From Eubacterium ventriosum (lineage in GTDB: Bacteria; Bacillota; Clostridia; Lachnospirales; Lachnospiraceae): 64,000 bases of DNA. A program made the position numbers and the translations under genes. The stretch spans positions 1,003,501 through 1,067,500 of the forward strand of contig NZ_CP102282.1 in the NCBI RefSeq assembly GCF_025150745.1. Reading direction: 5' to 3'. Below, piece by piece: positions 14,557 to 31,132 of the stretch (the stretch's first letter is position 1; each line of letters begins with the position of its first letter). The notes under the pieces are model-generated. The model ran no database searches, was not told the origin of the DNA, and saw only the letters and a list, made by a program, of their open reading frames with translations.

Positions 14557-14676
14557 GTGGTAGAATCTAAGGAAGATAAAAGGTTTGAAAAGTGTAGTTC
14601 TTTAGAACTGAACAAATCGGAATTTGTGGAGGTACTTTATGAACGAGAGAGAAAAAATTATCCGATTATGGTTTGA
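14557..14676 (+). pseudogene. Possible truncated conjugation gene
   Basis: Directly after virB4, a strong GGGGAGGTG site (14545-14553) precedes a GTG that opens a 39-codon frame. The frame runs into the NTF2-like gene in another phase and stops at 14676. The position and ribosome site are what would be expected of the next conjugation gene, cut off by arrival of the cargo genes. Which gene it was cannot be said. Confidence 0.35.
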
Positions 14677-15058: not shown

Positions 15059-15122
15059 GAGGACTATAAACTTGAATTTAACGATATAAATATTCCACAA
15101 CAAGGAGATGAGGAAAAACATA

Positions 15123-15506
15123 ATGATGTACAAGTTTAATGAAAAAGTGTCTGTAAAAGCATTGGCAGATTTGCGTGAATCTGTGGGTTGGAACAGGATG
15201 GAAAAAGAGTATAAAAACCCTTTGATGACATCGTATTACCATATTGCAGTTTATGAAAATGATAAACTGATTGGGTATATTGATAGTGTATCAAATGGGG
15301 TAGCAGATGCTTATATTCAAGATTTAATGGTTTGTCCGGATTACCAAGGTAAAGGGATTGGCACAGACCTGATGGATAAAATGATTGAATATTTGAAGAA
15401 AAAGCGTATCTACATGATTTCAGTGGTTTATGAAGAATGCTTAAAGCCGTTTTATGAGCGATTTGGGTTTTATAATATGCTGTGTGGGCAAATGGAAACA
15501 TATTAA
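15123..15506 (+). CDS. GNAT family N-acetyltransferase
   Basis: A 127-residue acetyltransferase. The acetyl-CoA binding loop is visible as VCPDYQGKGIGTDLM (Q/RxxGxG/A). The protein ends in the usual YERFGF segment. The preferred start is ATG 15123 (GAGGA upstream); an in-frame ATG at 15108 lies too close to AAGGAG. Part of the cargo block; acetylated substrate unknown. Confidence 0.8.
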   Translation: MMYKFNEKVSVKALADLRESVGWNRMEKEYKNPLMTSYYHIAVYENDKLIGYIDSVSNGVADAYIQDLMVCPDYQGKGIGTDLMDKMIEYLKKKRIYMISVVYEECLKPFYERFGFYNMLCGQMETY

Positions 15507-15582
15507 AAATCGTACATAATACAGTTTCTCGCACAAATTCCAATTTTTGAGATTGAGAAATCGGTATTTGGAGGTGAATAAA

Positions 15583-16044
15583 ATGGATAATTGTGATTGG
15601 TGTAACTTGTCTGAAGAAGATAAACAGTTTCAGGTGTACGAAAGTAAATCATGGTCTGTTTTCCTTTCAGATGAACAGGATTATATTGGACGCTGTATAT
15701 TGGTTTTGAATCGTCATTGCAATTCATTGTCAGAGCTAACAGATGATGAATGGGACGAGCTTCGCAATTTGATTTGTAAAATGGAGGCATGCTTAAAAAC
15801 TGTTTTAGGAGCAACTCTATGTAATTGGAGTTGTTTGATGAACAATTTCTATAAAGAGTCAGCGCCTAATCCTCATCTTCATATTCACGTAAGGCCAAGA
15901 TATGATAAGCCCATTGTGCTCAACGGGAGCACCCATACTGATAGCGAGTTTGGTCATCATTATGCGTTGAATAAGGGTGCGGTAATACCTTTTAAAGATA
16001 AGGAAGAAGTGTTTAGCCGACTAAAAGGATGGCTTAATCGTTAA
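15583..16044 (+). CDS. HIT family protein
   Basis: A 153-residue histidine-triad protein. The active-site motif reads PHLHIHVRPR (HxHxH, about residues 105-109). HIT proteins hydrolyse or transfer nucleotide groups. A CDWC pair near the N-terminus could bind metal. GGAGGTG precedes ATG 15583. Placed between two acetyltransferases in the cargo block. Confidence 0.85.
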   Translation: MDNCDWCNLSEEDKQFQVYESKSWSVFLSDEQDYIGRCILVLNRHCNSLSELTDDEWDELRNLICKMEACLKTVLGATLCNWSCLMNNFYKESAPNPHLHIHVRPRYDKPIVLNGSTHTDSEFGHHYALNKGAVIPFKDKEEVFSRLKGWLNR

Positions 16045-16143
16045 CTTCAAGTTTGTTGAACAATTATATTTCAGTTAAACGTAGCAATGTGGTTTGATTT
16101 TCTTGGCATAGAAAATCTACAGTTTATAGTGATAGGAAAACAA

Positions 16144-16761
16144 ATGATAACTATAGATGAATCATATATTAAAGTGTGTAAGCTCACTAAGAATATGGCA
16201 GCCGGTTATATCGATTATTTTGAGAACAGAGCATTTTCTGATGGTAATATTCAAAAAGGTTGTTATTGTGTTTGGCATCATTGGACGGAAAAACATGAAC
16301 ACGAGCGTAGTTTGATGCCGGAAAATGAGCGGCCATATCGAAAAAGAGATTATGCAAAAGAATTGATAGAAAAAGGTGTTTTGAACGGCTTTGTGGCTGT
16401 CTGTGAAGATAGAATAGTTGGATTCTGTAACGCAGATAATAAAAATACCTATTTCAGGTTAAGCAGGGAGAATGCGCCGAATAGTTGGACTGGTTCCCGT
16501 GAAGGGGATAAAATACTATCTATAGTATGTTTTACCGTTGAGCCTGATATGCGTAGGAAAGGAATAGCAAAAGCTATGCTTGAATATGCTTGTCAGTATG
16601 CTAAAGAAAATGGATATGATGGTATTGAAGGGTATCCTTCAAAGGGAAGGTTTTCTGCAAGTGACTGTGGTGGTTCTGTAGAGATGTATACAGATCAGGG
16701 ATTCGATATCATTGAGATTCCTAATGGTGTGGTTGCAAGAAAAAACTTTAAAAAGCAATGA
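16144..16761 (+). CDS. GNAT family N-acetyltransferase
   Basis: A 205-residue acetyltransferase with VCFTVEPDMRRKGIAKAML as the acetyl-CoA binding motif (about residues 119-137). It is larger than the first GNAT and has a Trp/His-rich N-terminal region (CVWHHWTEKHEHE). AGGA precedes ATG 16144; the longer frame from 16087 has no ribosome site. Last cargo gene; substrate unknown. Confidence 0.82.
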   Translation: MITIDESYIKVCKLTKNMAAGYIDYFENRAFSDGNIQKGCYCVWHHWTEKHEHERSLMPENERPYRKRDYAKELIEKGVLNGFVAVCEDRIVGFCNADNKNTYFRLSRENAPNSWTGSREGDKILSIVCFTVEPDMRRKGIAKAMLEYACQYAKENGYDGIEGYPSKGRFSASDCGGSVEMYTDQGFDIIEIPNGVVARKNFKKQ

Positions 16762-16797
16762 TCAATTTAATCGGAAGATAATCATACAACTTCCAGT

Positions 16798-16826
16798 TTG
16801 TAAGGAAAACTATCAAAACATAAATT
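16798..16826 (+). promoter_or_regulatory. Possible promoter of the nlpC gene
   Basis: TTGTAA (16798-16803), a 17-bp spacer and TAAATT (16821-16826) lie between the cargo genes and the hairpin at 16856. It could restore transcription of the last conjugation gene downstream of the insertion. Weak match. Confidence 0.35.
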
Positions 16827-16855
16827 ACATAGACAATAAATAGAATTGTAGACAA

Positions 16856-16896
16856 ACGCCGAGTTAGTGTAAAAGCTAACTTTGGCGTATTTTTTT
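16856..16896 (+). terminator. Intrinsic terminator before nlpC
   Basis: A GC-containing stem (ACGCCGAGTTAG with CTAACTTTGGCGT) with a short loop is followed by seven T. It ends 22 nt before the ribosome site of the NlpC/P60 gene. It either terminates the cargo transcript or acts as a leader attenuator like the other two ICE hairpins. Confidence 0.75.
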
Positions 16897-16919
16897 ACGC
16901 AAAAATAAAGGAGGACAAT

Positions 16920-18647
16920 ATGAAAATAGGTAAAGAAAAAGAAGTTGAAACAAAAATACACAAGAAGAAAAATGGCAAGATTCATAAGAAGCGAGATTTA
17001 AAAATAGATAACAAAGTAATGTCTACAAGGACGAAGAATAATGTAAGAACAATGAGAAAAGTAGCCGAGTCAAAGATTGTAGACAACATTGAAGGTGGTG
17101 AAAACATTGAGGAAACTTTTGAAGCTACAGGAATGGCAATAAAGCCTATAAAGAGCATTGTAAATGAAGGTAATCGTATTAGAAAAAAGGCAAAAGTTTC
17201 AAAACTTCAAAAAGAAGTCGTAGGAAGCAGGTTAAGAAAGAGAGCGGTTAATAAAGGTAAACAATTAGCAAAAAAGTCAGGCAGAAAGGCGGTAAAGAAA
17301 ATATCAAAAAAGATGGCTAAAGATAACGGCAGGAAAGTGGCAAAGGAAAGTGCAAAGATTGCAACCAAGGCTGGAACGGCAGTGGCAGGTTCAGTGGCAG
17401 GTTCAGTGGCAGGACCGGAAGGTACTTTGATAGGAATGGCTGCAGGCGAAGCAGCAGGAATGAAGATTGACAATACATTTTACAAGGCAGAGCAAAGAAG
17501 TAGAATGATGAAATTTTTTATGGATAAGCTGAAACCAAACGAAGAGCAGAATGACAGTCTTTTTAAACTTGTAGGGAGAATGGTAAGAAACAAAATGACT
17601 TTTTTGATAAAAAGAATGGTATCCTTATTGGCACCATTGATTACACCAATTTTAATAATTGTAATAGCAGCAACTGGGATTGTATTTGCCGTCATTGCAG
17701 TTCTGTACAATTCACCATTTGCATTGTTTCTTCCACCATTGGAAAGTGGAGACACAATACAGTCAGTGACAACACAGTATGTTTCAGAATTTAATCAGGA
17801 AGTGCAGACTTTGATTGATGAACACAAGGACGCTGACAAGGGAAGAAAGGTGTATGTGGATTATGAAGGAATGAATAGTGAGCCGTCCAATTATTACGAC
17901 ATTATGAGCGTGTACATGGTTAATTACGGATATGAAAATACCGCAACAAAAATGAATGAAACGAACAAGCAAAATTTGAAGGCAGTGTTTGATGACATGT
18001 GTAAGTACACCACGGAGAATGTGACAGAGAAAAAAGGCAAAAAGAAGATAAAGTATTTAGAGGTGAGAATTACACTAAAAAAATATACAGAAATGGCAAT
18101 AGAGTATCAGTTTGATGATAACAGAACAGCAACACTTAATCAGTTGATGAGTGCTTACATAACAAACAATCCTTCCGGTGGAAGTCAGATAAGTGGATTA
18201 CAGGGAAGTCTTACTCCTCAGGAAATAAGCAACATAACAGACAAGATTTCTAATCCAACACAAAAGGCTGTTGCTTCATTTGTTTTGTCAAAAGTAGGAT
18301 ATCCTTACAGTCAACCATTAAGAAACAGTGGAAAAGCATTTGACTGTAGTTCATTGGCATACTATGCGTGGAAGTCAGCAGGTGTTGACATATCGTTTGG
18401 CGGTGGAACAACTGCGGCTGCAGAAGCAGAAGGGCTGAAAGATAAGACAGTAAAAGAAGAAAATCTACAGCCGGGAGATTTGATTTTCTACAGTTATACA
18501 ACAAACGGAAGATATAGGAACATCAGTCATGTTGGAATTTATGTGGGCAATGGAAAGATGGTGGAAGCCGTGGATGAAGCTCATGGAGTGTGCCTGGGAG
18601 ACTATCATAATGGTGGATTGGTTATGATATGTAGACCGGGGAAATAA
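16920..18647 (+). CDS. Membrane-anchored NlpC/P60 hydrolase of the conjugation system
   Basis: A 575-residue protein. Residues 1-200 are basic with an Ala/Gly-rich helix. One strong membrane segment lies at about 240-267. The extracellular part (about 285-415) is likely VirB8/TcpC-like or spacer. The C-terminus is a C40 peptidase with Cys476 (FDCSSLAYYAW) and His537 (SHVGIYVG). It would cut peptidoglycan for the transfer channel. GGAGG precedes ATG 16920. Confidence 0.88.
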   Translation: MKIGKEKEVETKIHKKKNGKIHKKRDLKIDNKVMSTRTKNNVRTMRKVAESKIVDNIEGGENIEETFEATGMAIKPIKSIVNEGNRIRKKAKVSKLQKEVVGSRLRKRAVNKGKQLAKKSGRKAVKKISKKMAKDNGRKVAKESAKIATKAGTAVAGSVAGSVAGPEGTLIGMAAGEAAGMKIDNTFYKAEQRSRMMKFFMDKLKPNEEQNDSLFKLVGRMVRNKMTFLIKRMVSLLAPLITPILIIVIAATGIVFAVIAVLYNSPFALFLPPLESGDTIQSVTTQYVSEFNQEVQTLIDEHKDADKGRKVYVDYEGMNSEPSNYYDIMSVYMVNYGYENTATKMNETNKQNLKAVFDDMCKYTTENVTEKKGKKKIKYLEVRITLKKYTEMAIEYQFDDNRTATLNQLMSAYITNNPSGGSQISGLQGSLTPQEISNITDKISNPTQKAVASFVLSKVGYPYSQPLRNSGKAFDCSSLAYYAWKSAGVDISFGGGTTAAAEAEGLKDKTVKEENLQPGDLIFYSYTTNGRYRNISHVGIYVGNGKMVEAVDEAHGVCLGDYHNGGLVMICRPGK

Positions 18648-18656
18648 AATATGTTA

Positions 18657-18724
18657 AATGTGGTTCCAATCTTAATAATTCAACCACATTAGAATTCGAC
18701 AACCTATCTTATCTTTGATAAAAT
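18657..18724 (+). promoter_or_regulatory. Inverted repeat and promoter of the second ICE operon
   Basis: A 9-bp inverted repeat (AATGTGGTT 18657-18665, AACCACATT 18682-18690) overlaps the start of the motif TTAGAATTCGACA (18689-18701). TCGACA, a 17-bp spacer and TAAAAT (18719-18724) follow, matching the promoter at 622-657 in all 13 motif bases. The inverted repeat could be an operator or the terminator stem of the nlpC transcript. Confidence 0.65.
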
Positions 18725-18769
18725 TATTGTGTCAAAGGAAATTGATCAATAACTAAGACAACAAAATAA

Positions 18770-18823
18770 ATGCCTTATTAAAATTCTTGGTTTAATACCG
18801 GGAGTTTTAATAGGGCATTTTTT
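18770..18823 (+). terminator. Leader terminator (putative attenuator)
   Basis: A stem based on ATGCC(T)TATTAAAA and TTTTAATAGGGCAT is followed by a T-run. It starts about 45 nt after the promoter's -10 and lies upstream of the gene at 18861. The arrangement copies that at 622-771. Confidence 0.7.
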
Positions 18824-18860
18824 ATTTACAAAATTTTGATGGGAAGAGAGGAGTGAACCA

Positions 18861-19223
18861 GTGAAACAGACAGGAGAAAAATACAAAATTAGAGAAATCA
18901 GTTATCTTTTTCAGACACTTGAAAAGGAATGGGAACGTTCCGGAAGAACAGTGACTAAGCGAAAACTAGATCAGGATGCATTGGACATGTTTTCTGAATA
19001 TTACGTGCGAAAGGTGAAGGAATATGAAACAGAGCAGGACAATATCAAAACCAAAACAATTCAAAAGATGGTGAAGGAAATAAAGGAAATGAGCATTCTT
19101 TTAAGAATAACAAAAAAGATTTGTACCAAATCAAAAGCTCAGACTACAAAGGATTACATCATTATTGAATTGGACAAGGAAGAAAGGAATTGTTTGGAAA
19201 ATATTATAGGAAGTGAGGAGTAG
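18861..19223 (+). CDS. ICE protein of unknown function
   Basis: A 120-residue charged, mostly helical protein that I do not recognise. It starts at GTG 18861 with GAGAGGAG upstream. It is the first gene behind the second ICE promoter and attenuator and precedes the tandem SpoVG gene by 3 nt, so the genes are co-transcribed. Confidence 0.65.
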   Translation: MKQTGEKYKIREISYLFQTLEKEWERSGRTVTKRKLDQDALDMFSEYYVRKVKEYETEQDNIKTKTIQKMVKEIKEMSILLRITKKICTKSKAQTTKDYIIIELDKEERNCLENIIGSEE

Positions 19224-19226
19224 CGG

Positions 19227-19856
19227 ATGAATTATAAGATAAAAGTGTACAAGACAAAAAATAATGAATGGAGCACTAAGGCATATGCTTCAGTTACATT
19301 TAATAACAGTTTTGTTGTAACAGGAATAACGGTTAGGGAAGGAAAGAACAATAACTTATTTGTAGCCATGCCAAGTTATAAAAGCAGCAAGACAGATGAA
19401 AATGGCAGACCCATATACAAAGATTATTGTAATCCAACCACAAAGGAATTCAGGGATGAACTTTATGGAAACATCATTGATGCTTATATGAATGACAAGA
19501 AGGAACTTGAAGTAAAAGGTGCAAGCAACAAGTTTGAATTTGGAATAGCCCTAAGAAGTTTTAGTGGTGAGAACATAGAAGCCTTGGGACGCATTTATTT
19601 TGACAAATGCTTTGTCATTAATAATGTGAAAGTAATTCCAAGCGAAAAAGGTTCATTTGTGGCAATGCCATCACAACTTGTAAGCAAGGAAAATGGTGAA
19701 AAAGAATATGAAGATATTTGTTTTCCAATAACCAAGGAATTTAGGAAAGAATTATATGATGCAATTTTAAAGGAAAAGGACGTAATGAAACAGAAACAGC
19801 AGGAAGAATTTCAAAAGATTGACGAAATGGACAAAGAAAATTTGCCATTTAGATAG
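19227..19856 (+). CDS. Tandem SpoVG-domain protein
   Basis: A 209-residue protein made of two SpoVG-like domains. Repeat 1 (about 1-95) has ASVTFNNSFVVTGITVREG, NNLFVAMPSYK and a terminal PTTKEFRDELY. Repeat 2 (about 100-190) has GRIYFDKCFVINNVKVIP, GSFVAMPSQ and PITKEFRKELY. SpoVG is normally a single ~95-residue RNA/DNA-binding regulator of cell envelope and sporulation genes. Here a regulatory role in the element is inferred. Confidence 0.85.
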   Translation: MNYKIKVYKTKNNEWSTKAYASVTFNNSFVVTGITVREGKNNNLFVAMPSYKSSKTDENGRPIYKDYCNPTTKEFRDELYGNIIDAYMNDKKELEVKGASNKFEFGIALRSFSGENIEALGRIYFDKCFVINNVKVIPSEKGSFVAMPSQLVSKENGEKEYEDICFPITKEFRKELYDAILKEKDVMKQKQQEEFQKIDEMDKENLPFR

Positions 19857-19865
19857 GAGGAGCTT

Positions 19866-20363
19866 ATGGACAAAAATATATGTGTAATTTTTAGAAAAGA
19901 TGGATTGTCAGACGATGACGTAAGAATGGAAATAATGAAGAGTATTGCGTGTATTCCAAAGCAGGAACTAAGCAATATACATATTTGCATTGACAGCTTG
20001 AAAGAAGATAATGACGGTATTAGACGTGAATGGTTAAAACAATTCATAAAGGAAAACTTATTTACAACGAGTACAATATATACTAATTCATTAGTAAGTA
20101 TTGCATATGACATAACAGAAATAAACATTTTCATAGCATTGATGCATTTGTTTGGAATAAATATTTATCTGGAAAATGAAGAGGCAAGCATATTACCTGA
20201 TCCATTGTATGTAGGTGAAATTCAAAAAATAATAAAGACTAAACTTAAGGAGCATCCAATGTGTATAGCAAAGGCTAATGCAGAGGAAAGAGTGTTTGTA
20301 GCAAATGTTGTGTTAGACATTATAGATAATCTTTGGTTAAGTTACAGAAAGACAGCACAGTAA
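19866..20363 (+). CDS. ICE protein of unknown function
   Basis: A 165-residue acidic protein that I do not recognise. It starts with a strand-like DKNICVIFRKDG, and contains alternating hydrophobic segments that suggest an alpha/beta fold (for example TEINIFIALMHLFGINIYLE). It has AGGAGG 5 nt before ATG 19866 and is co-transcribed with the SpoVG gene. Confidence 0.6.
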   Translation: MDKNICVIFRKDGLSDDDVRMEIMKSIACIPKQELSNIHICIDSLKEDNDGIRREWLKQFIKENLFTTSTIYTNSLVSIAYDITEINIFIALMHLFGINIYLENEEASILPDPLYVGEIQKIIKTKLKEHPMCIAKANAEERVFVANVVLDIIDNLWLSYRKTAQ

Positions 20364-20428
20364 AATGAAAATGTTTTTATACTTTACAAATGAAAGAGGA
20401 AGTTATATAATGACACTACAGCAGAAAT

Positions 20429-20442
20429 CGAACATACATTCG
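20429..20442. promoter_or_regulatory. SOS-box-like site upstream of the LexA-like gene
   Basis: CGAACATACATTCG matches the Gram-positive LexA/DinR box CGAACRNRYGTTCG at 13 of 14 positions. It lies about 62 nt before the gene for a LexA-type DNA-binding domain. This suggests control by host LexA, or self-control. Confidence 0.55.
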
Positions 20443-20504
20443 AACGAAAGCTGAGCTTCTATCCGGAATGAAGTAAGAGAAATGAAAACTTAAACAGAAG
20501 GGAG

Positions 20505-20732
20505 ATGAACCAGGTGTCTACAGAAGATTTGAGCAAAAGGCAGATACAGATATATGACAGCATTGTAGCTCATGTCCAGGAATACGGTTTTGCACCCACC
20601 GTCAGAGAGTCGTGCAAATTAACAGGTTTAGCTTCCACATCAACTATAATTGGGCATTTAAAGACTTTAGAGAAAAAGGGATACATAAAAAGATATCCTG
20701 CACACCCTAGAGCAATTACAATATTACAGTAG
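20505..20732 (+). CDS. LexA-type DNA-binding domain protein
   Basis: A 75-residue protein equal to the N-terminal winged-helix domain of LexA (SKRQIQIYDSIVAHVQEYGF, PTVRESCKLTGLASTSTIIGHL, LEKKGYIKR). The C-terminal dimerisation and self-cleaving protease domain is absent, so it cannot be inactivated by RecA-driven cleavage. It could compete with host LexA or regulate the element. Start at ATG 20505, AGAAGGGAG upstream. Confidence 0.85.
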   Translation: MNQVSTEDLSKRQIQIYDSIVAHVQEYGFAPTVRESCKLTGLASTSTIIGHLKTLEKKGYIKRYPAHPRAITILQ

Positions 20733-20904
20733 ATGTGTGAGATGGAAATTACCGAAGTATAAGATCAGCTGAATAACAGGTCATGTGCGTAAGGCTAAAC
20801 AGGCGCAGATGATGGTTACATAAGGCTTACAAGGAATAGTTTCCCATCCTTTGTGAGTACAAAAATTTAATGATTAAATATTTGTATAACAAGGAGAAAC
20901 ACAA

Positions 20905-21177
20905 TTGAACAGAATAGATACTAATGGAAAGAATACATTTAATGTAGGAGATGAAGCCTACATTATTGAGAGTAATCGCAACGTAAGAAAAGTTACAATC
21001 ATAAAGATAAGCAGAGATTTCTGTACAGTAAGATTTGCTGATACAGATGGAGCAATAGCAGTAAGAGTAAGCAGACTGTATGGTACCCGCAAGATGGCAG
21101 AGGAATCACTGCCAAAGAAACTAACAGTTGCAGTCAGACAGGAAGGACCTCGTCCTCCACATAACGTATGGATGTAG
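20905..21177 (+). CDS. Small ICE protein of unknown function
   Basis: A 90-residue protein, start TTG 20905 with AAGGAGA 7 nt upstream. The first half looks like a small beta-barrel (FNVGDEAYIIESNRNVRKVTIIKI, CTVRFADTDGAIAVRVSRLY), possibly KOW/SH3-like. The end reads RPPHNVWM. The 170 nt upstream (20733-20904) hold no gene but several short inverted repeats. Function unknown. Confidence 0.6.
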   Translation: MNRIDTNGKNTFNVGDEAYIIESNRNVRKVTIIKISRDFCTVRFADTDGAIAVRVSRLYGTRKMAEESLPKKLTVAVRQEGPRPPHNVWM

Positions 21178-21190
21178 TGGAGGTGATTTG

Positions 21191-21526
21191 GTGATAGAGT
21201 TTGAATATGACAAAACGGGGGTCGGCATACGACTAGAGATGCTTAGGAAAAAGGCTAACAGTTCCAGAGAAAAGGCAGCGGAAGACTTAGACATATCAAA
21301 GGATTCCTTATATGCCTATGAAAAGGGAAAAAGCATCATGAGTGCAGAAGTATTGGCAAAGGTTTGTATCTTATACAATACTTCAATGGAATACTTACTT
21401 AATGGTTGTGAGTCAGAAAACAATGTTATAATTCCGGAAATAATGATTTCTTTAGGAAAATATAATGTTGAACAACAGAAACACATGTATGCAGCATTGA
21501 GTCATATGATGAAAGTGTTTGCGTAA
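21191..21526 (+). CDS. XRE-family transcriptional regulator
   Basis: A 111-residue protein with an HTH_3 domain at about residues 11-65 (IRLEMLRKKANSSREKAAEDL, DSLYAYEKGKSIMSAEVLAKV). The preferred start is GTG 21191, 5 nt after GGAGGTG; an upstream in-frame ATG at 21128 lies inside the preceding gene. Probably controls ICE genes. Confidence 0.75.
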   Translation: MIEFEYDKTGVGIRLEMLRKKANSSREKAAEDLDISKDSLYAYEKGKSIMSAEVLAKVCILYNTSMEYLLNGCESENNVIIPEIMISLGKYNVEQQKHMYAALSHMMKVFA

Positions 21527-21540
21527 GAAGAATAAAAAAA

Positions 21541-21572
21541 TCACACTTATGGTGTGAAAACCATAAGTGTGA
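21541..21572 (-). terminator. Strong hairpin terminator
   Basis: A perfect 12-bp stem (TCACACTTATGG with CCATAAGTGTGA) with an 8-nt loop. On the minus strand it is followed by seven T, giving a canonical terminator in that direction. On the plus strand it lacks a T-run, but it may still act at the end of the regulator operon and insulate the defence genes. Confidence 0.7.
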
Positions 21573-21779
21573 TAAATGGAGAAAAAAATTATAGAAAGAG
21601 TAAAACAAAAGGATTTAACATAAAATCATACAAGGTTTAATGGTGCGTTGAATTGATTAGAATTAATGTTTTTAAGAATATTATGCTATATAAAAAGTAG
21701 TTGATATTACAGTAATATTTTTTTAGAAAATATAGTGCAAAAAATAGATAAAAGAAAATATGTAAATTATAAAGCGAAA

Positions 21780-21808
21780 TTGTCTTTTTTTAAAATTCAG
21801 GATATGTT
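21780..21808 (+). promoter_or_regulatory. Promoter of the ABC-3C-like operon
   Basis: TTGTCT (21780-21785), a 17-bp spacer and TATGTT (21803-21808) lie 38 nt before the start codon of the first gene in the defence set. The surroundings are very AT-rich. It suggests independent expression of the three-gene cassette. Confidence 0.45.
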
Positions 21809-21846
21809 ATTATTTTAGTATTAAATGATAAATATATAGGTGTAAG

Positions 21847-23109
21847 ATGATTAAAGAAAAGTTACAATTGGAACAAATTAATACAGACGCAGATGCAAGC
21901 ATAAAAGGAATAGGATTACAAAAGTTACGAGTGGCGGAAAGATTGTTAAGGGCTATTATTGATGGCAAAAAAGCAATATTTTGCACTATCGAACATATTG
22001 ATGATGTATTAGAGATAGATGTATCTAAAAGTAAAGATGTAACAGATTATGTAACAGAACAGGACAAATCATATTCTACAAATTTTTCAATAAACGACGA
22101 GGAAATAAAAAAATCTTTAAGAATTTTCTTTGATAATTGGTATGGTACAGTAGAGGGGTCAGAAAATATTAAATTTCTTTTTTATACGAATGCTAGTATC
22201 AAAAAAGAGAAAAAAGTTGGAATATTAAAAGAAATCGATATGGATCTTCCGAAAAAACCGTTATTACAGTTGATAGTAGAAAAAAAGTATTCGGAAGCGT
22301 TTCCGTTTGTTTTACCAGTTTTTAAAAAATATTATATAGAACAACATAAGAAACATACTGATAAAATAGAAACATATGAAAAAATATTAGATTCTATGGA
22401 TGAAAAAGAGTGGAGAAAGTTTTTCGATTTGATTGAATGGAACTTTGAAAGACCTAATGAACAAGAAATTAGAAATAATATTAACGAAATGGTAAAAGAA
22501 TTATGTATAAAATACAATGTATCTAATAAGTATACAAATGCGATTATTGCAAGTATTTTAGACATGGTTGAGTCGAGAAGATTTGCAGACGATTTTTTAG
22601 AGAAAATTGTCCATGTGAGTGAGATTAAAACACTTTTTCTTGAATTTGCGCAAGAAGCAAAAATAGAAGAAAAATTAGATCCAATGCATACAAAATGGGA
22701 TGGCATATTGTGTGATGATGTGAGATGCCTTAGCGAAAAATTTAAAAATGTGTGTGTAGAGTATGATAAAGAAGATTTGGAAGATTTAGAGGAAGAATAT
22801 GTGGATGGAATATATGAACAACGCCAACATCCAAATGTACAACAGGTAAAAGCATATAATTATAGGGTTTATAAAGTCTGTAATAAAGCAATAAAAAAAT
22901 TTTTGAAAAAGAATCAAAATAATTTAAAACAGGATGAAATAGAAAAATTTCTCGATGATCTAACAGATGAGGCATATGATTTTATAAAGGATAAATCTAA
23001 GACTTACAATGTTGCATATGAGGATAGAGATATGATTAGAAAGACAATCATTATTTTATTTCAAGAGTGTTATTTAGCATTAGATGAAAGGAAATCAATA
23101 AATGGATAG
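21847..23109 (+). CDS. ABC-3C-like effector with Cap4-like nuclease domain
   Basis: A 420-residue protein. The N-terminus (about 20-130) has the Cap4/DUF4297 nuclease pattern: GIGLQKLRVAERLL, then Glu49, Asp53 and Gln72-x-Lys74, matching the E...D...QxK core of restriction-like nucleases. The C-terminal ~280 residues are helical and charged, as in ABC-three-component effectors. It overlaps the next gene by 8 nt. I infer a nuclease effector controlled by the downstream ATPase. Base composition is more AT-rich than the transfer genes. Confidence 0.65.
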   Translation: MIKEKLQLEQINTDADASIKGIGLQKLRVAERLLRAIIDGKKAIFCTIEHIDDVLEIDVSKSKDVTDYVTEQDKSYSTNFSINDEEIKKSLRIFFDNWYGTVEGSENIKFLFYTNASIKKEKKVGILKEIDMDLPKKPLLQLIVEKKYSEAFPFVLPVFKKYYIEQHKKHTDKIETYEKILDSMDEKEWRKFFDLIEWNFERPNEQEIRNNINEMVKELCIKYNVSNKYTNAIIASILDMVESRRFADDFLEKIVHVSEIKTLFLEFAQEAKIEEKLDPMHTKWDGILCDDVRCLSEKFKNVCVEYDKEDLEDLEEEYVDGIYEQRQHPNVQQVKAYNYRVYKVCNKAIKKFLKKNQNNLKQDEIEKFLDDLTDEAYDFIKDKSKTYNVAYEDRDMIRKTIIILFQECYLALDERKSING

Positions 23110-23620
23110 CAAAAAAAGAATGATGTTTATTTTAGAGGAAGATTATTATTTTATTACAATCAAGATTCTTTCAATTTTAAAAGCATTAGACTGTGAAAAA
23201 AATCCATTTCAGGATTATAGAAAATTGGGAATAATATTTGAGTTTATAAAAAACGATGAAAATATTTGTTTCCTAAAAAAATTAATTAAACATAATTCAG
23301 AAGAAATTTTGGATAGTGAAAAAACTTTAAAGATTTTTTGTGAATCAAGGTTGTGTGTTGCTGTAATAAAAAGAGTGATTTTCTTTCTTGAAAAAAAAGA
23401 TATAATTGAATTGATTAGGAATAAAAAAAATTGTAACATAGATATTAGATTAAAAGAATCAATTGTAATGGAAGAATTAATGAATTTGGATATCTTGCAC
23501 TGTGATATAGAGAAGTGTAAAGAAATAAAGGATTTAGTTCCTAGAATTAGAAGTTTGAAATTAGAAACACTTCAAACAAAAGTATTTGGATATAATGAGG
23601 TATCAAAATGGGAAGATTAG
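23102..23620 (+). CDS. ABC-3C-like middle component
   Basis: A 172-residue helical protein between the nuclease-like and ATPase genes, overlapping both (8 and 13 nt). Length, position and the segment QDYRKLGIIFEFIKN fit the middle component of ABC-three-component systems. The family link is weak on sequence alone and leans on context. Confidence 0.6.
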   Translation: MDSKKRMMFILEEDYYFITIKILSILKALDCEKNPFQDYRKLGIIFEFIKNDENICFLKKLIKHNSEEILDSEKTLKIFCESRLCVAVIKRVIFFLEKKDIIELIRNKKNCNIDIRLKESIVMEELMNLDILHCDIEKCKEIKDLVPRIRSLKLETLQTKVFGYNEVSKWED

Positions 23621-25527
23621 CCATTCGAAGAGTAATTTATAAAGGTGAAAAATATAGTTATGAGTCTCCTTATTTAAATGATGGATTGGTCATAATGGAA
23701 GGAGTTAATGGTCATGGAAAAAGTACATTTATGAGTTTAATCTATTATTGCTTAGGCGGAAGTGTACAATCATTCAATAAGAATGATAATTCAGGGAAAA
23801 AACATAAAGAAATATGTGAAGACAAGAATAATTATGTTGAAATGTTAATAGAAATTAATGGTGAGGAATATGAACTAACGAGGTACATTGGTAGTTCGTC
23901 TATTTTTATTGTAGATGAAAAGGAAAATGTAATTGAAACGTGTGTATTTAGACAACAAAATGATAAAACAATAACGGTTTTTTCTGACTGGATACTAGAC
24001 AAGTTGAAAATCGAAGTATTTGATCTTGTTCAAGGAACAAAGAGTTTTAAATTAAATTTTACTGATTTAATGAGACTTATTTATCATGATCAAACGACAG
24101 AAGTAGATCGAATTTATAAAGATGCAGATAATTCTAATTTTATGTCAGACTCATTAGAAATTAGGAAGGCAATTTTTGAGATTTTATTGGGAAAGATATA
24201 TAATGACTATTATTATACATTGGGACAATACAAAATAAAGTTAAAAGAATATGAAAAAGCACAGGCGATTATGGATAGTTACGATGAGTTTTTGAGAGAA
24301 ATATTAGATGAGGATTTATTAAATGAAATTCATATTAAATCTATGGTTTTGGAAAACGAAGAAATGGTCGAAAAAGTGAAACTAGAGCGTGATATTATTA
24401 TTAATCAACAAAGCGATGTAAATGATGTGTGGGATATTATCAAGGAGCAAAAAAGTGTATTAGCAGAAGAACAAAGTAAGGAAGAGGAATTATTATATTC
24501 AAAATATATCACAAATCAATCAATAGATAAAATTATATATTTAATAGATGAGGCTGAGAAAGAGTTAGAGGAAATTAAAAAAATTCGTTTAGTAAATAAA
24601 AAGTTAAAATTATTTAATCCAGATACATGCCCATATTGTTTAAGAAAGGTAGAAAGGAAAGAAGGAAAATGTATTTGTGGAAAAGATATTACAGAGGAAC
24701 AATATGAAAAATTTTTTTATACAGATGAAGAGTATTTGGATATATTAAAAGTAAAGAAAAAATCTATTTCATCACTCAATTCATTGCTAGAAAGAAAAAA
24801 AGACAGTTTACAAACTATAGCTAAAAAGATAGAAATAGTTCGAGATGAAAGTGAAAAAACTAAAGATTATATTGCAGAATTAATGAAAGAAATCAATTTG
24901 AATTATAATTCAGCATACATAAGGAAACTAGATGAACGAGAAAGGCAACTTAATGAAAAAATTGCTGAACTGCAACGAGCTGAGCAATTAGCTGAAAAAA
25001 GAGAAAAAATCGATAAAAAAGTTATGAAATTACGAAATAGCGTAGAAGGATTAAAAATCAAGGTGGATTCTTGTTTAAATGATGCAAGGGATGATATGTT
25101 AAATAAAAAGAATGATTTTGATGAAATATATTTGGAATTAATGAAGAAGGCAGATAAACATTGTTATTCAGCATATTTAGGAAATGATTATATGCCTCAT
25201 ATAAACAGTGGAACATATAGAGAAAGAAGTGCAGAAGTCCCTAAACGCTTGATGTATTTTTTAACATTAATGATTGAAAGCTTGAAGGATAAAGATAATT
25301 TCCCGAGATTTTTAATGATTGATACACCTAATAAAGAAGGAATTGATAGAGATAATTTAATAGATAATATTGCATTACTAAAAGAAGCAGATAAATATAC
25401 TGATAATGGCAATATTTCGTATCAAATTTTGCTAACAACAGGGAAGGATGTTTATCCAAATGAATTTAAAAAATTTGTTTGTTGTTCTCTTGATGCAGAT
25501 ACATATTTACTGAAAGAAAATGAGTGA
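23608..25527 (+). CDS. Rad50/SMC-like ABC ATPase of ABC-3C-like system
   Basis: A 639-residue ATPase. Walker A GVNGHGKS is at 32-39. A long coiled coil follows (about 200-520), broken by a zinc-hook-like CPYC...CICG (about 342-357). The C-terminus holds the Walker B-like FLMIDTPNKEG typical of this family. Such ATPases sense foreign DNA and license the effector. It ends the three-gene operon, followed by a terminator. Confidence 0.8.
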   Translation: MGRLAIRRVIYKGEKYSYESPYLNDGLVIMEGVNGHGKSTFMSLIYYCLGGSVQSFNKNDNSGKKHKEICEDKNNYVEMLIEINGEEYELTRYIGSSSIFIVDEKENVIETCVFRQQNDKTITVFSDWILDKLKIEVFDLVQGTKSFKLNFTDLMRLIYHDQTTEVDRIYKDADNSNFMSDSLEIRKAIFEILLGKIYNDYYYTLGQYKIKLKEYEKAQAIMDSYDEFLREILDEDLLNEIHIKSMVLENEEMVEKVKLERDIIINQQSDVNDVWDIIKEQKSVLAEEQSKEEELLYSKYITNQSIDKIIYLIDEAEKELEEIKKIRLVNKKLKLFNPDTCPYCLRKVERKEGKCICGKDITEEQYEKFFYTDEEYLDILKVKKKSISSLNSLLERKKDSLQTIAKKIEIVRDESEKTKDYIAELMKEINLNYNSAYIRKLDERERQLNEKIAELQRAEQLAEKREKIDKKVMKLRNSVEGLKIKVDSCLNDARDDMLNKKNDFDEIYLELMKKADKHCYSAYLGNDYMPHINSGTYRERSAEVPKRLMYFLTLMIESLKDKDNFPRFLMIDTPNKEGIDRDNLIDNIALLKEADKYTDNGNISYQILLTTGKDVYPNEFKKFVCCSLDADTYLLKENE

Positions 25528-25545
25528 GTTAGTATTGTTGATGAA

Positions 25546-25582
25546 AACCGATTGATTTGTAAAATAATCAATCGGTTTTTTT
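25546..25582 (+). terminator. Terminator of the ABC-3C-like operon
   Basis: A 12-bp perfect stem (AACCGATTGATT with AATCAATCGGTT), an 8-nt loop and a T-run, 19 nt after the ATPase stop codon. Confidence 0.9.
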
Positions 25583-26001
25583 ACTATGGTGAGAGGACTG
25601 GATTAGATACACTTTCCTACTCAATTTATAATCTCGTACTATTTTCATACCCCTTTTCGTATTATCCTCGATTTTAAGTTACCCCGGAAAATTTTACAAT
25701 AAGTGCATAGTCATTGAGGTACCAACCCAAGGCTTAACTTACAAATACATAGAACAGGTTTCTACTATATTAATAGTGAATCTGCACTACGCCGTGATTA
25801 GTGTGGCTTTGTGGTAAGAGTAGCATTATAGCGAGACAGATTTATACTGGCGACGGTCAGAGGAAAAGAAACAACTATCGTGTAGGAGATTTAATAAGGC
25901 GTTTCTCTGTTGTGAAAACAGTCGATATACATTCAGACGTGATGACTATGTAGATGTAAGTTACCATTTATAACAAATATCAATTTAAAGAAGGTAGCAG
26001 A
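25583..26001. other. Gene-free, possibly structured region before the xis/int genes
   Basis: About 420 nt with no credible ORF and less AT-rich than the flanking intergenic DNA. It contains many short inverted repeats. The segment TCGATATACATTC (25921-25933) resembles the SOS-box segment TCGAACATACATTC upstream of the LexA-like gene. It could be a long untranslated leader or small RNA for the excision operon. Confidence 0.4.
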
Positions 26002-26328
26002 ATGAAATATGACAAAATAGAAACAGGAGTAAATTTAAGACAGTTAAGAATAGAAAATAAATTGTCACCGGGAGAAGTAAGCGACATCGTTGATAAAAGC
26101 GAATCACATATAATGCAGCTTGAAAGAGGAAGCAGAAACCTTACAGTAGAAATGCTTTGTAAGTTTGCAGATGTATATAATGCAGATCCCAATACTATTC
26201 TTGGAATACATACATCAATGTCAGAAGAATTGTATGCAGAATTGAGTATGTTGTCTATGGATATAAGAAATAAGTTATGTTCTAGTTTCTTGGAAATTGT
26301 AAAAAGTGTAAAAAACGGACAGAGGTGA
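26002..26328 (+). CDS. XRE-family transcriptional regulator
   Basis: A 108-residue protein with an HTH_3 domain at about residues 9-65 (LRQLRIENKLSPGEVSDIV, SESHIMQLERGSRNLTVEML). AAGAAGG precedes the ATG. It is followed 6 nt later by the DUF6462 gene and lies before the integrase, so it probably controls excision. Confidence 0.85.
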   Translation: MKYDKIETGVNLRQLRIENKLSPGEVSDIVDKSESHIMQLERGSRNLTVEMLCKFADVYNADPNTILGIHTSMSEELYAELSMLSMDIRNKLCSSFLEIVKSVKNGQR

Positions 26329-26334
26329 TTATAA

Positions 26335-26544
26335 ATGACAAAAGGTGCACAAGTAATGATAAGAAATCAGAAAATAGCAAAAAAATTTGTAAGATATGGT
26401 GAAGGGGCACAATTATATTCAATGTCCCAAAGTACCTTTGAAAAACTTGCAAAGGAAGCAAAAGCTATATATAAGTACAACAAGTTAGTATTAGTAAATA
26501 CTGAAAAAATAGATGAATATTTAGAATTGTTTCATGAATTTTAG
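26335..26544 (+). CDS. DUF6462 family protein (putative excisionase)
   Basis: A 69-residue protein resembling DUF6462 proteins that lie beside integrases in Firmicutes ICEs. It has a winged-helix or excisionase-like pattern (KKFVRYGEGAQLYSMSQST, FEKLAKEAKAIYKYNKLVLV). AGAGGTG precedes the ATG. An excisionase-like DNA-bending role is inferred from size and position. Confidence 0.7.
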   Translation: MTKGAQVMIRNQKIAKKFVRYGEGAQLYSMSQSTFEKLAKEAKAIYKYNKLVLVNTEKIDEYLELFHEF

Positions 26545-26565
26545 AAAAAGACCTTTCATTGACAC

Positions 26566-26594
26566 TTGACTTTTTGGAGTACAAAAAGTAAAAT
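26566..26594 (+). promoter_or_regulatory. Promoter with internal operator for the RHH/integrase genes
   Basis: TTGACT (26566-26571), a 17-bp spacer and TAAAAT (26589-26594). Between them lies an inverted repeat TTTTTG-GAGTA-CAAAAA (26571-26587), well placed for a repressor, plausibly the ribbon-helix-helix protein that follows. Confidence 0.65.
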
Positions 26595-26621
26595 ATTGGT
26601 AAGTGCAGGGAGGTGTAGATA

Positions 26622-26792
26622 ATGTCAAAAATGGGAAGACCAAAATCTGATAATCCAAAGAATAAGAAAGTATCTACAAGATTATCAGAAGCAGAGTACG
26701 ATCGTTTGAAATTATATGCATCTAAGCATTCTCTTACAATATCAGAAGTGATTAACTTGAGTTTAGAATATTTGTATTCTAGCAGAGAGTGA
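26622..26792 (+). CDS. Small ribbon-helix-helix (CopG-like) protein
   Basis: A 56-residue protein. The start GRPKSDNPKNKKVSTRLSEA and the helices DRLKLYASKHSLTISEVI and LSLEYLYS fit a ribbon-helix-helix DNA binder. GGGAGGTG precedes ATG 26622. It sits between the putative excisionase and the integrase, directly behind a promoter with an operator-like palindrome, so autorepression is likely. Confidence 0.75.
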   Translation: MSKMGRPKSDNPKNKKVSTRLSEAEYDRLKLYASKHSLTISEVINLSLEYLYSSRE

Positions 26793-26833
26793 AAATGAAG
26801 GGTCTTTTTTGTTTATTTGAAAGGAGACCAATC

Positions 26834-28075
26834 ATGGAAAAGAAACGTAAAGATAGTAGAGGAAGAGTTCTTCGTAAAGGTGAAGCATTTCGTGAAAAGG
26901 AAGGTAGATATTCGTATGAATATAAAGATACCTTTGGAAATAGGAAGACAATTTACTCTGTAGATTTATTGAAATTACGTGAAAGAGAAAAACAAATAGA
27001 AAGAGACATAAGTGATGGACTCAACATGTATGTAGCTGGGAAGGCAACATTAAACTATTTGTTTGAAAGGTATATGGATACAAAATATAATTTACGAGAA
27101 AATACAAAAGTAAATTATAAATATATGTACGACAATTATGTTAGAAATACTATAGGAAAAAGACTGATAGCTGACATAAAATATTCAGACATCGTTTATT
27201 TTTACAAAAGTTTAATTACTGAAAAAGGTTTAGAACTTAATACAGTGGATACAATTCATACGGTAATACATCCGGTGTTTTCAATGGCGGTTAGGGATGA
27301 TGTTATTAGAAAAAATCCAGCTAGTGGAGTATTGGCTGATATTAAGAAAGAGAGTGGTAAAAATAAAGGAATAAGACACGCTTTGACAATAGAACAACAG
27401 AGAGTTTTTATGAAATATATGATTGAAGAGGAACAATTTAATCATTGGATTCCAATTTTTACTATTTTATTAGGAACGGGATGTAGGGTAGGTGAATTTA
27501 TAGGACTTAGATGGGAGGATGTTGATTTTAAACAAAAAGTAATTAGTATAAATCATAGTATAGCGTACGTGTGTTATGGTAAAGAAGATGGTAGGAAGAG
27601 CCATTATGCAATATCTTTGCCTAAAACAGAAGCGGGTATAAGATACATTCCAATGACAGACGAAGTATATGATGTATTCAAAGCAGAGTATTACAGACAA
27701 CAGGAAAATGGCTTTAGTCAGTTTTCAATAGAAGGAATGTCGGGATTTATATTTACAAATCGTTGTGGAAGAATTTATAATCAACAAACTTTAAATAAAG
27801 GACTAAAAAGAATATCCGAGAATTATAACCAGAAGGAATTAATAGATGCAAAGAAACAAAAACGTGAACCTATTATTCTACCACATTTTACATGTCATCA
27901 ATTAAGGCATACTTTTGCAACAAGATTATGTGAAAGTACAAGTAATTTAAAAGCAATTCAAGATATTATGGGACATGCAAATATTGAAACAACAATGGAC
28001 ATATATGCAGAAGCCACAGTAGGAACAAAACAAAAAGCAATTGAAAATTTATCAAACAATTTAAAACTTTTTTAG
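26834..28075 (+). CDS. int: Tyrosine integrase
   Basis: A 413-residue site-specific recombinase. It has an N-terminal arm-binding domain (about 1-65), a core-binding SAM-like domain (about 70-165) and a catalytic domain with Arg218, His355-x-x-Arg358, His381 and the nucleophile Tyr391. It should integrate and excise the ICE. The start is ATG 26834 with AAGGAG upstream; an earlier ATG at 26793 lacks a ribosome site. The element end lies about 160 bp downstream. Confidence 0.95.
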   Translation: MEKKRKDSRGRVLRKGEAFREKEGRYSYEYKDTFGNRKTIYSVDLLKLREREKQIERDISDGLNMYVAGKATLNYLFERYMDTKYNLRENTKVNYKYMYDNYVRNTIGKRLIADIKYSDIVYFYKSLITEKGLELNTVDTIHTVIHPVFSMAVRDDVIRKNPASGVLADIKKESGKNKGIRHALTIEQQRVFMKYMIEEEQFNHWIPIFTILLGTGCRVGEFIGLRWEDVDFKQKVISINHSIAYVCYGKEDGRKSHYAISLPKTEAGIRYIPMTDEVYDVFKAEYYRQQENGFSQFSIEGMSGFIFTNRCGRIYNQQTLNKGLKRISENYNQKELIDAKKQKREPIILPHFTCHQLRHTFATRLCESTSNLKAIQDIMGHANIETTMDIYAEATVGTKQKAIENLSNNLKLF

Positions 28076-28096
28076 AAAGAGAACCTTATTGTTAGG

Positions 28097-28131
28097 GACG
28101 TAAAAAGTGACAAAAGACGTGAAAAGGACGT
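28097..28131. repeat. Candidate integrase arm-binding repeats
   Basis: Three GACGT motifs, each followed by an A-rich tract (28097, 28116 and 28127), lie between the integrase stop codon and the element end, where arm-type sites are expected. The sequence shows the repeats; the function is inferred. Confidence 0.45.
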
Positions 28132-28174
28132 AATAATAATATTCCTTTATACATTATAATACACTATGATAAGT

Positions 28175-28202
28175 TTGACTGAATTAGGGAAATAACGATA
28201 AT
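28175..28202 (+). promoter_or_regulatory. Outward promoter at the ICE end
   Basis: TTGACT (28175-28180), a 16-bp spacer and GATAAT (28197-28202) point out of the element into the metG remnant. It could drive transcription of the orphan domain and the genes beyond. Confidence 0.45.
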
Positions 28203-28213
28203 ACCTTGTAGTA

Positions 28214-28246
28214 TGGGATAATAAGTATAGCATATGATTATTCCCA
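28214..28246. other. ICE attachment-site junction (putative attR core)
   Basis: The 33-bp imperfect palindrome has arms TGGGATAAT (28214-28222) and ATTATTCCCA (28237-28246) around a 14-bp centre. The right arm already reads as metG codons (L-F-P), while an in-frame TGA (28235-28237) lies just before. This fits a tyrosine-recombinase core site formed half by the ICE and half by the chromosome. Confidence 0.6.
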
Positions 28247-28726
28247 ACAATGAAGAGCTTAGATAGCCCTGTTAAGGAAAATAAGGAAGCTAAGAGTGAT
28301 GAAGCAGAAAATTGCAACCAGAATGCGACTGTTGAAGAAAAGATTGATTTTTCAAATGTAAAGATTGAACCTTTATTTGAAGAAGAAGTTGATTTTGAAA
28401 CATTTAGCAAGTCAGACTTTAGAGCAGTTAAGGTTAAAGAGTGTGTTGCAGTACCAAAGAGTAAAAAACTTTTACAGTTTACACTTGATGATGGCACAGG
28501 CGTAGATAGAACAATCCTTTCTGGTATTCATGCATATTATGAACCGGAAGAATTAGTTGGAAAGACATTGATTGCAATCACAAATCTTCCACCAAGAAAA
28601 ATGATGGGAATAGAATCATGTGGTATGTTACTTTCAGCAGTAAATAACCTTAAGGATTCAGAAGATGAGGAACTTCATCTTGTTATGGTTGATAACCATA
28701 TTCCAGCAGGAGCAAAGCTCTACTAA
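28238..28726 (+). pseudogene. metG: Orphan C-terminal tRNA-binding domain of methionyl-tRNA synthetase
   Basis: The frame from 28238 reads L-F-P-T, then a Lys/Glu/Asn-rich linker and the MetRS C-terminal OB-fold tRNA-binding domain (about 100 residues: FSKSDFRAVKVKECVAVPKSKKLL, GMLLSAV, and an end AGAKLY). Full MetRS is ~640-680 residues, so the catalytic and anticodon-binding parts are missing and should lie beyond the left end of the ICE. A product could start at ATG 28250, but no ribosome site is visible. Confidence 0.8.
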
Positions 28727-29188
28727 GATGAGAAAACTGAGCCTTGCGGCGGTGTGCGCTTGCAAACACCGACATAAGGCGAAAAACACACGGAGACGTC
28801 AGTCGACGTGATGTAAAGATGGACCGTTTCACCGAATAGACGGGACGTACTTCATTTGATAAAAAACTAAAAAAACAGCGATTTACATCAAACTTACATC
28901 AATTGATGCAGAAATCGGTGCAAGCAAGAAAAAATCGCATAATTTGGAACATCAGCAGGAAAACAAGCACGAGCAAAGCGAGTATTTGTTTTCACCTGAT
29001 GTGACAACGACAAAATCAAGGAGTGCGAAGCACGGCAACGGCAAAGCCGTTGGATTTTGGAGTGATAAATGAGTGGGCAATTCTAATCGGAGTTGCCCAT
29101 TTTTAAAACAAACAGAAATACAAATCGGGATTTGAGAAGGTAAGTGAAAGGGATACCACAATACAAGATACAATGGAGGAATATGATA
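28727..29188. other. Gene-free, GC-richer segment, possibly remnant of another element
   Basis: No ORF is supported. The stretch holds several hairpins: GTGC/GCAC and CAACGGC/GCCGTTG at about 29020-29052, with CAAAATC and GATTTTG around them. A terminator follows at 29074-29104. Its composition differs from the AT-rich neighbours and resembles the MATE gene that follows, suggesting they arrived together. Confidence 0.4.
29074..29104 (+). terminator. Intrinsic terminator
   Basis: Stem TGGGCAA with TTGCCCA, a 12-nt loop and five T, located before the MATE gene. Confidence 0.75.
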
Positions 29189-30532: not shown

Positions 30533-30550
30533 CTTCCTGTTTGCCAACTT

Positions 30551-30592
30551 GCCCTTTGAGAGAGGAGAAATCCCTTTCTCAAAGGGCTTTTT
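30551..30592 (+). terminator. Terminator after the MATE gene
   Basis: A 13-bp perfect stem (GCCCTTTGAGAGA with its complement ending AAAGGGC) and a T-run, 19 nt after the stop codon. Confidence 0.9.
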
Positions 30593-30667
30593 CTATTTAT
30601 ACGGATACTCGCAAACTACAAGATAAAGCCAAAACTTCATATAATCTAAGCACAAGGAGGTTGAGGT

Positions 30668-31132
30668 TTGGCTATGAATAACAGTTTAGCAGAAGTACAC
30701 CCGGAGCTTGCTTCGGAGTGGTCGGAAAAGAACTTGCCTTTGAAACCTGATGAAGTAAATGCAAAGTCGAGGAAAAACGTCTGGTGGAAGTGCAGGCACG
30801 GTCATTCGTGGAGTATGAAGATAAATGAAAGAACGATATTGAAGAAAGGCTGTCGAATTTGTGAGCAGGAGTATTTGTCATTGTTTCCTGCTTTGGCTGT
30901 CAGCTATTATTCTAATAAGAAAGGCTTGAAAGCAGAACTTGGACGAATGGCCACAGAAAGTGGTTTTGTGAGGTATACTTTTGAAAAGGTGATTCGATTG
31001 AAGGAAATATTTGCAGCTAAAGGCAATGCTCTTATTACAAGAGCTGTAGCCAGGGATTTGTATGATTGGTGCAATATGGTGTCTGAGGGTCTCTTTGAAG
31101 AACAGCGTGATTTGTTTAGAAAATGCCGGTAG
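30668..31132 (+). CDS. Zinc-ribbon (treble-clef) domain protein
   Basis: A 154-residue protein. The N-terminus (about 5-75) is a treble-clef zinc finger of the type often repeated in large endonuclease-like proteins: HPELASEWSEKN, then VWWKCRHGHSW and GCRICE. The rest is helical and unknown. AAGGAGG precedes TTG 30668; ATG 30674 is the alternative. Only one finger is present, so it may be a cut-down member. Confidence 0.7.
   Translation: MAMNNSLAEVHPELASEWSEKNLPLKPDEVNAKSRKNVWWKCRHGHSWSMKINERTILKKGCRICEQEYLSLFPALAVSYYSNKKGLKAELGRMATESGFVRYTFEKVIRLKEIFAAKGNALITRAVARDLYDWCNMVSEGLFEEQRDLFRKCR

Follow-up and report, generated by a model that had tools for sequence, protein, structure and literature searches.

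The element and its insertion site

The DNA analysed here, a stretch of 64,000 nucleotides referred to as the window, comes from Eubacterium ventriosum (genome G000; C1:1003501-1067500, C1 being the contig), the genome of which is a single contig of 2.86 Mb with a completeness of 99.97%. The window begins inside an integrative and conjugative element (ICE) of 59.9 kb that is delimited by a 19-bp repeat with one mismatch (Table 1). The two copies of this repeat, attL and attR, lie 59,880 bp apart and share 18 of 19 bases, and identity drops on either side of them. Judged from the genome sequence alone, this one bounded element carries the components by which an ICE is recognized, namely an integrase, a relaxase, a coupling protein and a VirB4-type ATPase, the last represented by a PF19044 protein that we take to be VirB4-like. 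The element also encodes ParA, ParB, RepA_N and SpaA-domain proteins.

Table 1. Features of the right ICE end, its insertion site and the adjoining DNA (window positions unless preceded by C1).
Feature	Position	Strand	Remarks
attL repeat	C1:971857-971875 (outside window)		3′ part of lysS; reads ATTATTCCCGACAATGAAG, G in place of A
Right part of 59.9-kb ICE	1..28236	+	left part upstream of window, from C1:971876
Relaxase, MobA/VirD2-like	2963..4408	+	PF03432
VirD4/TraG-type coupling protein	8914..10506	+	PF02534, PF12696
Conjugation ATPase	12173..14536	+	PF19044
NlpC/P60 cell-wall hydrolase, probably of conjugation module	16920..18647	+	domain match
Tyrosine integrase, Tn916-type arm-binding domain	26834..28075	+	PF02920 + PF00589
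Putative outward sigma-70-like sequence	28175..28202	+	ICE right end; TTGACT-16-GATAAT, 10/12 consensus
attR repeat	28237..28255 (C1:1031737-1031755)	+	ATTATTCCC-A-ACAATGAAG; whole copy reads ATTATTCCCAACAATGAAG
Stranded LysRS C-terminal tRNA-binding domain	28250..28726	+	158 aa; PF01588 tRNA_bind, 85.8 bits
DNA just past orphan, 136 bp	28809..28944	+	96-98% identical to DNA after fused domain in G331, G186, G087, G005 and G299
DUF4379 zinc-finger gene, shortened, with upstream DNA	30533..31132	+	pieces 88-98% identical to G087/G186 elements

The split gene is lysS

The right end of the ICE abuts an orphan frame for a tRNA-binding domain, upstream of which the in-frame sequence reads TGA-L-F-P-T. 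The original prediction had correctly described the TGA and the ICE end directly before the orphan, and it had considered that the 5′ part of the split gene might be at the other ICE end, where it is indeed found on the orphan's strand. It had, however, named the wrong enzyme, taking the orphan for the C-terminal domain of MetRS, L-F-P for the end of the MetRS anticodon-binding domain and metG for the target. That the orphan is a tRNA-binding domain of the PF01588 family holds, and its 42% identity to the C-terminal domain of the G000 MetRS speaks for the metG reading. Yet the sole MetRS of G000 is complete and encoded elsewhere in the genome, so that the metG version fails, the orphan being neither fused to nor split from a MetRS core. 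Relatives instead carry a homologue of the orphan fused to class II LysRS sequence (GIGFGIDRMCMLLTN..IRDVLLFPTMK, also given as GIDRMCMLLTN..IRDVLLFPTMK; the GIGFGIDRMCMLLTN stretch is presumably motif 3), L-F-P is the end of the LysRS core, and the left flank of the ICE is lysS. We therefore rejected metG as the target and assign this reading next to no probability. The domains contained in the long LysRS frames of relatives are at most 88% identical to the orphan, and the position of PF01588 after the LysRS core in these proteins identifies a LysRS C-terminal EMAP/Trbp111-like domain.

G000 encodes one LysRS above the TIGR00499 cut-off (668 bits; C1:970349-971890), which lies at the left ICE flank on the orphan's strand. 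The L-F-P codons expected at this flank are present, albeit in lysS, the product of which ends in LLFPTMKQLDK-stop. The final codons, CAGTTGGATAAATAA (Q-L-D-K-stop), are element DNA, meaning that the G000 LysRS is now short-tailed, which is the usual state in the genus, and the element end regenerates an in-frame lysS terminus as do islands that restore the 3′ end of their target. A LysRS match was obtained in 18 of 21 genus relatives (E 1e-100), comprising 15 frames of 498-541 aa, some of which end near a contig end, and three partial ones. The predicted structure, in which the core of an essential aminoacyl-tRNA synthetase is kept without its accessory C-terminal domain and the ICE sits at the linker, thus stands for LysRS and falls for MetRS. 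Plain bacterial LysRS is functional without the extra domain. Related OB-folds are described, in the accessible part of the source, as aiding tRNA binding (PMC11286949), and the domain may likewise influence aminoacylation by LysRS.

Expression of the stranded domain

The original prediction further held that an outward promoter at the ICE end could express the free domain. The consensus match exists (Table 1), but a 1.2-kb scan returned four promoter-like sites against 3.6 ± 1.8 in shuffled sequences and hence no excess over chance; in the circular ICE, moreover, the site would point at the parA-parB-rep genes of the left end, an equally good reason for its presence. Upstream of the G000 orphan, there is no in-frame start with a Shine-Dalgarno-like site, and the sole nearby ATG lies in the att core without a ribosome-binding site, which leaves expression of the free domain unsupported. 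As a general design, free expression was rejected over 42 lysS-type right ends (see below), of which six have an in-frame start with a Shine-Dalgarno-like site.

By analogy, the orphan might nevertheless be one half of a split protein that is expressed and serves as a free, trans-acting tRNA-binding factor in the manner of Trbp111. Its frame in G000 is intact, the promoter-like sequence is directed at it, and such a start is found in four of 27 domain-bearing right ends. Given that the remaining 23 lack one, that in G000 a TGA is directly upstream and the nearby ATG is buried in the att core, and that the promoter-like match does not exceed chance, we regard this as very unlikely.

Distribution of the domain and the integrase

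The domain was found in 48 of 391 genomes in a scan of the class (E 1e-30) and in 141 of 397 genomes in a scan of the family, the window genome being included in both. At least 39 of the 141 domain-bearing family genomes contain short orphan frames of 104-230 aa according to a hand tally of the matches listed; in at least five of these, the orphan starts less than 200 bp from the contig start and may merely be cut. A fused lysS-domain gene with an orphan downstream on the same contig and strand was seen in the class scan in G405 (two orphans), G351, G369 and G070, and among the matches listed for the family scan in G805, G495 (two), G599, G794, G640, G431, G525, G574, G679, G687, G737, G567 (three) and G711. 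A homologous integrase lies directly upstream of 18 of the 26 orphans examined in detail. The eight orphans without one are those of G681, G795 and G431, one of two in G495, two of three in G640 and two of the three read in G590. G527 and G678 have both orphan and integrase, with no lysS within 118 and 78 kb upstream, respectively.

Altogether, 61 distinct integrase right ends were collected, that of G000 included, and the integrases of the relatives are 38-59% identical. A lysS-type 3′ end was recognized by pattern within 700 bp at 42 of them, 105-344 bp past the integrase stop codon, 27 being followed by the domain and 15 by a short tail; since possession of the domain was the reason for including many of these loci, such proportions are not prevalences. 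The proposed co-occurrence of this integrase with a split gene in other genomes is thus borne out at these 42 ends, the gene being lysS instead of metG. No lysS core was detected by pattern at the other 19, where the domain follows the integrase in three cases (G794, G679, G622) and neither feature is seen in 16. Other targets, contig ends or diverged cores are candidate readings of these ends. A search of the class in which only the integrase served as query gave a match in 30 of 391 genomes (E 1e-60).

Searches beyond assembled chromosomes yielded little. With the domain as query, tblastn returned a clean circular form neither from plasmids (235 records, with matches that include records annotated as lysS or metG) nor from a phage collection (28 records, with short unannotated contigs as best matches), and none of 10 candidate stretches from a scan of viral contigs was confirmed. 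A scan of genome contigs gave five loci, one of them useful (Enterocloster citroniae, see below). Separately, the draft contigs of G022, G015, G016, G361, G012 and G367 end approximately 100 bp or less from the lysS 3′ end, as expected if repeated or variable elements occupy the site.

Gain, exchange and loss of the domain

Pairwise comparisons of lysS show jumps in identity at the att core, indicating that the domain travels with the elements. Between G405 and G070, which belong to different genera, twelve 120-column windows before the att core are 58-82% identical and twelve after it 94-99%, with the high identity extending beyond the stop codon and into DNA of the element. G331 and G087, from different families, are 46-85% identical before the core and 94-100% after it for approximately 600 bp; for G405 and G351 the corresponding values are 59-88% and, over 840 bp, 96-100%. 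Within one genus, G351 and G369 share 80-94% in the core and 63% in the first 120 tail columns, followed by 91-100% in six windows. At the protein level, core and tail identities are 59% and 93% for G186/G331 and 76% and 99.4% for G405/G351. Tails exceed cores by a mean of 12 points (sd 8) over 465 pairs from 31 genomes, G175, G300, G423 and G005 being excluded because the core match is missing or the pieces are short; since tails are generally more conserved than cores, the proof of exchange comes solely from the extreme pairs and the breakpoints in the DNA. It is these breakpoints, not a core-versus-domain tree, from which exchange is inferred.

Individual loci illustrate all three outcomes. 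Gain is seen in G186, where on one contig a fused domain is present at lysS and a displaced short tail (PTMKPKDTL*) lies beside an integrase 54.6 kb downstream on the same strand, and in G087, which likewise has the domain fused at lysS and where the displaced tail PTMKPLDK* lies beside an integrase 108 kb downstream, again on the same strand. A swap is represented by the genomes with one domain fused and another displaced, among them G405, G351, G369 and G070. G431 combines a fused tail of the G186 type with a displaced one of the G087/G331 type, so that one element-borne domain has replaced another. Loss is represented by Enterocloster citroniae WAL-17108 (NZ_JH376420.1; Lachnospiraceae), in which LysRS ends in FPTMKSLEK* (357647-359089) and the stranded domain is located beside an integrase at approximately 236 kb, 121 kb downstream of lysS on the same strand. 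Here, ptsI, which is encoded near lysS in several relatives (G004, G010, G020 and G349), follows 4.5 kb beyond the stranded domain. None of the 20 other right flanks retrieved passed the same test for a native flank (ptsI within approximately 20 kb), and a clear native neighbour is thus seen for the displaced domain of E. citroniae alone.

Two further candidates for clean loss were discarded: G795 was set aside, as its short tail and domain are separated by a parA-parB-rep module that contains no integrase, and G681 was rejected on account of a second integrase approximately 6.5 kb beyond the orphan. G005 was dropped as an example of an intact lysS, its two lysS contigs overlapping at only 79% identity, which points to two lysS copies or a mixed bin. 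As a side observation, a lysS-type unit of approximately 8 kb with a tRNA-binding domain at its left end is 96% identical between G590 and G681, and G590 and G795 share, at 96% identity, a 6-kb parA-parB-rep stretch in which no integrase separates the short tail from the domain.

Origin of the orphan in E. ventriosum

The DNA that follows the G000 orphan resembles the left end of domain-carrying elements, suggesting that the orphan is probably element-borne. The 136 bp just past it (Table 1) match DNA that in G186 and G087 lies inside the integrated element, while the domains next to these 136 bp share only 74-80% DNA identity. Further on, the shortened DUF4379 gene has its counterpart in the G087 and G186 elements between the lysS-domain gene and parA (G000 pieces around 30533-30942). 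On this sequence evidence, the orphan probably marks the left end of an older element that has since decayed. A third att core was not found by pattern in C1:923502-1107500, nor was a second integrase homologue in the G000 genome at E 1e-30, and the right end of the older element was accordingly not located as far as C1:1107500. Two orders of events fit: the older element may have given LysRS the domain, which the present ICE then cut off, or it may have entered at the right att site of the ICE, in which case the domain was never fused to the G000 LysRS.

Alternatively, the orphan could be the host's own former LysRS domain, as its in-frame position at the att core would allow. This appears unlikely, considering that, among 40 genomes including its own, a strong match to the orphan is confined to G000 and the draft G005, that the 136 bp as well as the DUF4379 region have counterparts in element DNA, and that ptsI is far off in G000. 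The last point is tempered by the absence of ptsI from the stretch beside lysS in G009, G065, G239, G403 and G280 as well. In G000, metG and ptsI are close together (C1:473597-478577), probably reflecting a rearrangement at the lysS-ptsI junction.

A model for the reassortment of LysRS tails

Overall, the outline of the original prediction is correct and its enzyme wrong, and the pattern is wider than foreseen: the tRNA-binding domain at the C-terminus of LysRS is reassorted by elements that target lysS. We propose, with a probability of about 0.88, that such elements add, exchange or remove this domain, and that the G000 orphan probably stems from an older element. As the comparisons show, the tyrosine integrase of a wide group of elements recombines at a short conserved lysS stretch that encodes (L)FPTMK, the last residues of the catalytic domain. 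Where LysRS is plain, lysS terminates with this stretch, and the last few codons are restored by the element. Many relatives have the extra tRNA-binding domain directly after (L)FPTMK, which is why insertion falls on a domain boundary. The left end of the element becomes the new LysRS C-terminus, supplying either a short tail (e.g. QLDK-stop) or a complete tRNA-binding domain, and the former tail ends up next to the integrase at the opposite end, with the result that successive insertions add, exchange or remove the domain. At the sequence level, the catalytic core stays in frame throughout, and aminoacylation may be affected. In G000, the ICE supplies the short tail to LysRS, and a domain lies stranded at its right end; excision of the ICE should reverse the exchange.

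Whether the domain matters to this traffic is a separate question. The elements may simply practise ordinary 3′-end targeting, with the domain dispensable and its loss or exchange a neutral by-catch. In keeping with this, a domain-free LysRS is usual in the genus (15 of the 18 matched relatives), elements occur beside short tails as well as beside domain tails, and some orphans are broken (G640, G687, G074). In domain-bearing hosts, however, elements often bring their own full-length domain (G405, G351, G369, G070 and others), which suggests that it is worth keeping. From the sequence patterns, we would give neutral by-catch slightly less than an even chance.

Relation to known lysS-targeted elements

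Targeting of lysS as such is already known from published repeats and ICEs. The att core TTCCC(A/G)ACAATGA in the 3′ part of the lysS core is that of vanD-type lysS targeting: the vanD islands Tn6711-Tn6713 in Enterococcus lysS have the repeats TTCCCAACAATGA, TTCCCGACAATGA and TTCCCCACAATGA, 17 bp from the gene end (PMC8301612 Table 3, seen in the accessible part of the article), and the 13-bp TTCCCAACAATGA / TTCCCGACAATGA form the centre of the G000 repeat, A/G difference included. At that distance from the 3′ end only a few codons can change in the vanD hosts, whereas the G000 ICE sits at a domain boundary; unlike the latter, the islands are described without conjugation genes, and the accessible text does not mention domain gain or loss (PMC8301612). 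As in G000, ICEs occupy lysS in streptococci, both at the 3′ end with tyrosine integrases and repeats of 13-17 bp (PMC4701971) and, for vanG-family ICEs, in Streptococcus suis (PMC7168690), as far as these sources are accessible. Insertion at the LysRS end is presented in PMC4701971 as minimising the impact on the host, and a tRNA-binding domain is not mentioned in the available portions of either source.

The logic of a regenerated target and a displaced fragment is shared with tRNA-gene islands (Islander, PMC4383910, accessible part), but the fragment displaced by lysS elements can be a whole protein domain, so that protein architecture may change. ICEs in rumA likewise alter the C-terminus of a protein; according to the accessible text, they use a serine integrase and swap C-termini with the integrase gene, and no separate domain of the target enzyme is involved (PMC4701971). 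In a literature search that was thin on subscription journals and in part limited to partial texts, lysS was found as a target, but no description of elements by which a LysRS domain is gained, lost or exchanged.

Integration at the 3′ ends of housekeeping genes is usually held to be harmless because the element restores the end. In domain-bearing hosts, what the same trick exchanges is an entire tRNA-binding domain, and the enzyme concerned is an essential aminoacyl-tRNA synthetase; this provides a concrete route for the gain, the loss and the spread between families of aminoacyl-tRNA synthetase domain architectures. The patchy occurrence of the domain may be due in part to this route, as may the PF01588 frames that are split or duplicated downstream of lysS. 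It is a rather doubtful extension that elements are the main shapers of LysRS architecture, probably in Clostridia, drawing on a circulating pool of domains and using a reversible, switchable domain by which tRNA affinity is changed to the benefit of host or element.

Further features of the region

Some observations concern the surrounding DNA. Within the conjugation module, a reverse transcriptase (PF00078, window 6954-8777) is encoded, presumably a group II intron maturase. In the left part of the ICE, a radical SAM protein, an ABC transporter and a subtilase-family protein are encoded in a row (C1:986362-992045), with frames nearby that by eye resemble LytTR-type regulators; this row is perhaps a cluster for a ribosomally made peptide carried as cargo. 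To the right of the insertion, a cassette of ABC transporter, response regulator and histidine kinase genes (named by eye; window 31348-35849) is 97.6% identical over 4.5 kb to one in G331 that is likewise located approximately 8 kb downstream of lysS, as would befit a recently moved cassette. Farther to the right, a very long frame of 2239 aa spans window positions 52624-59343.
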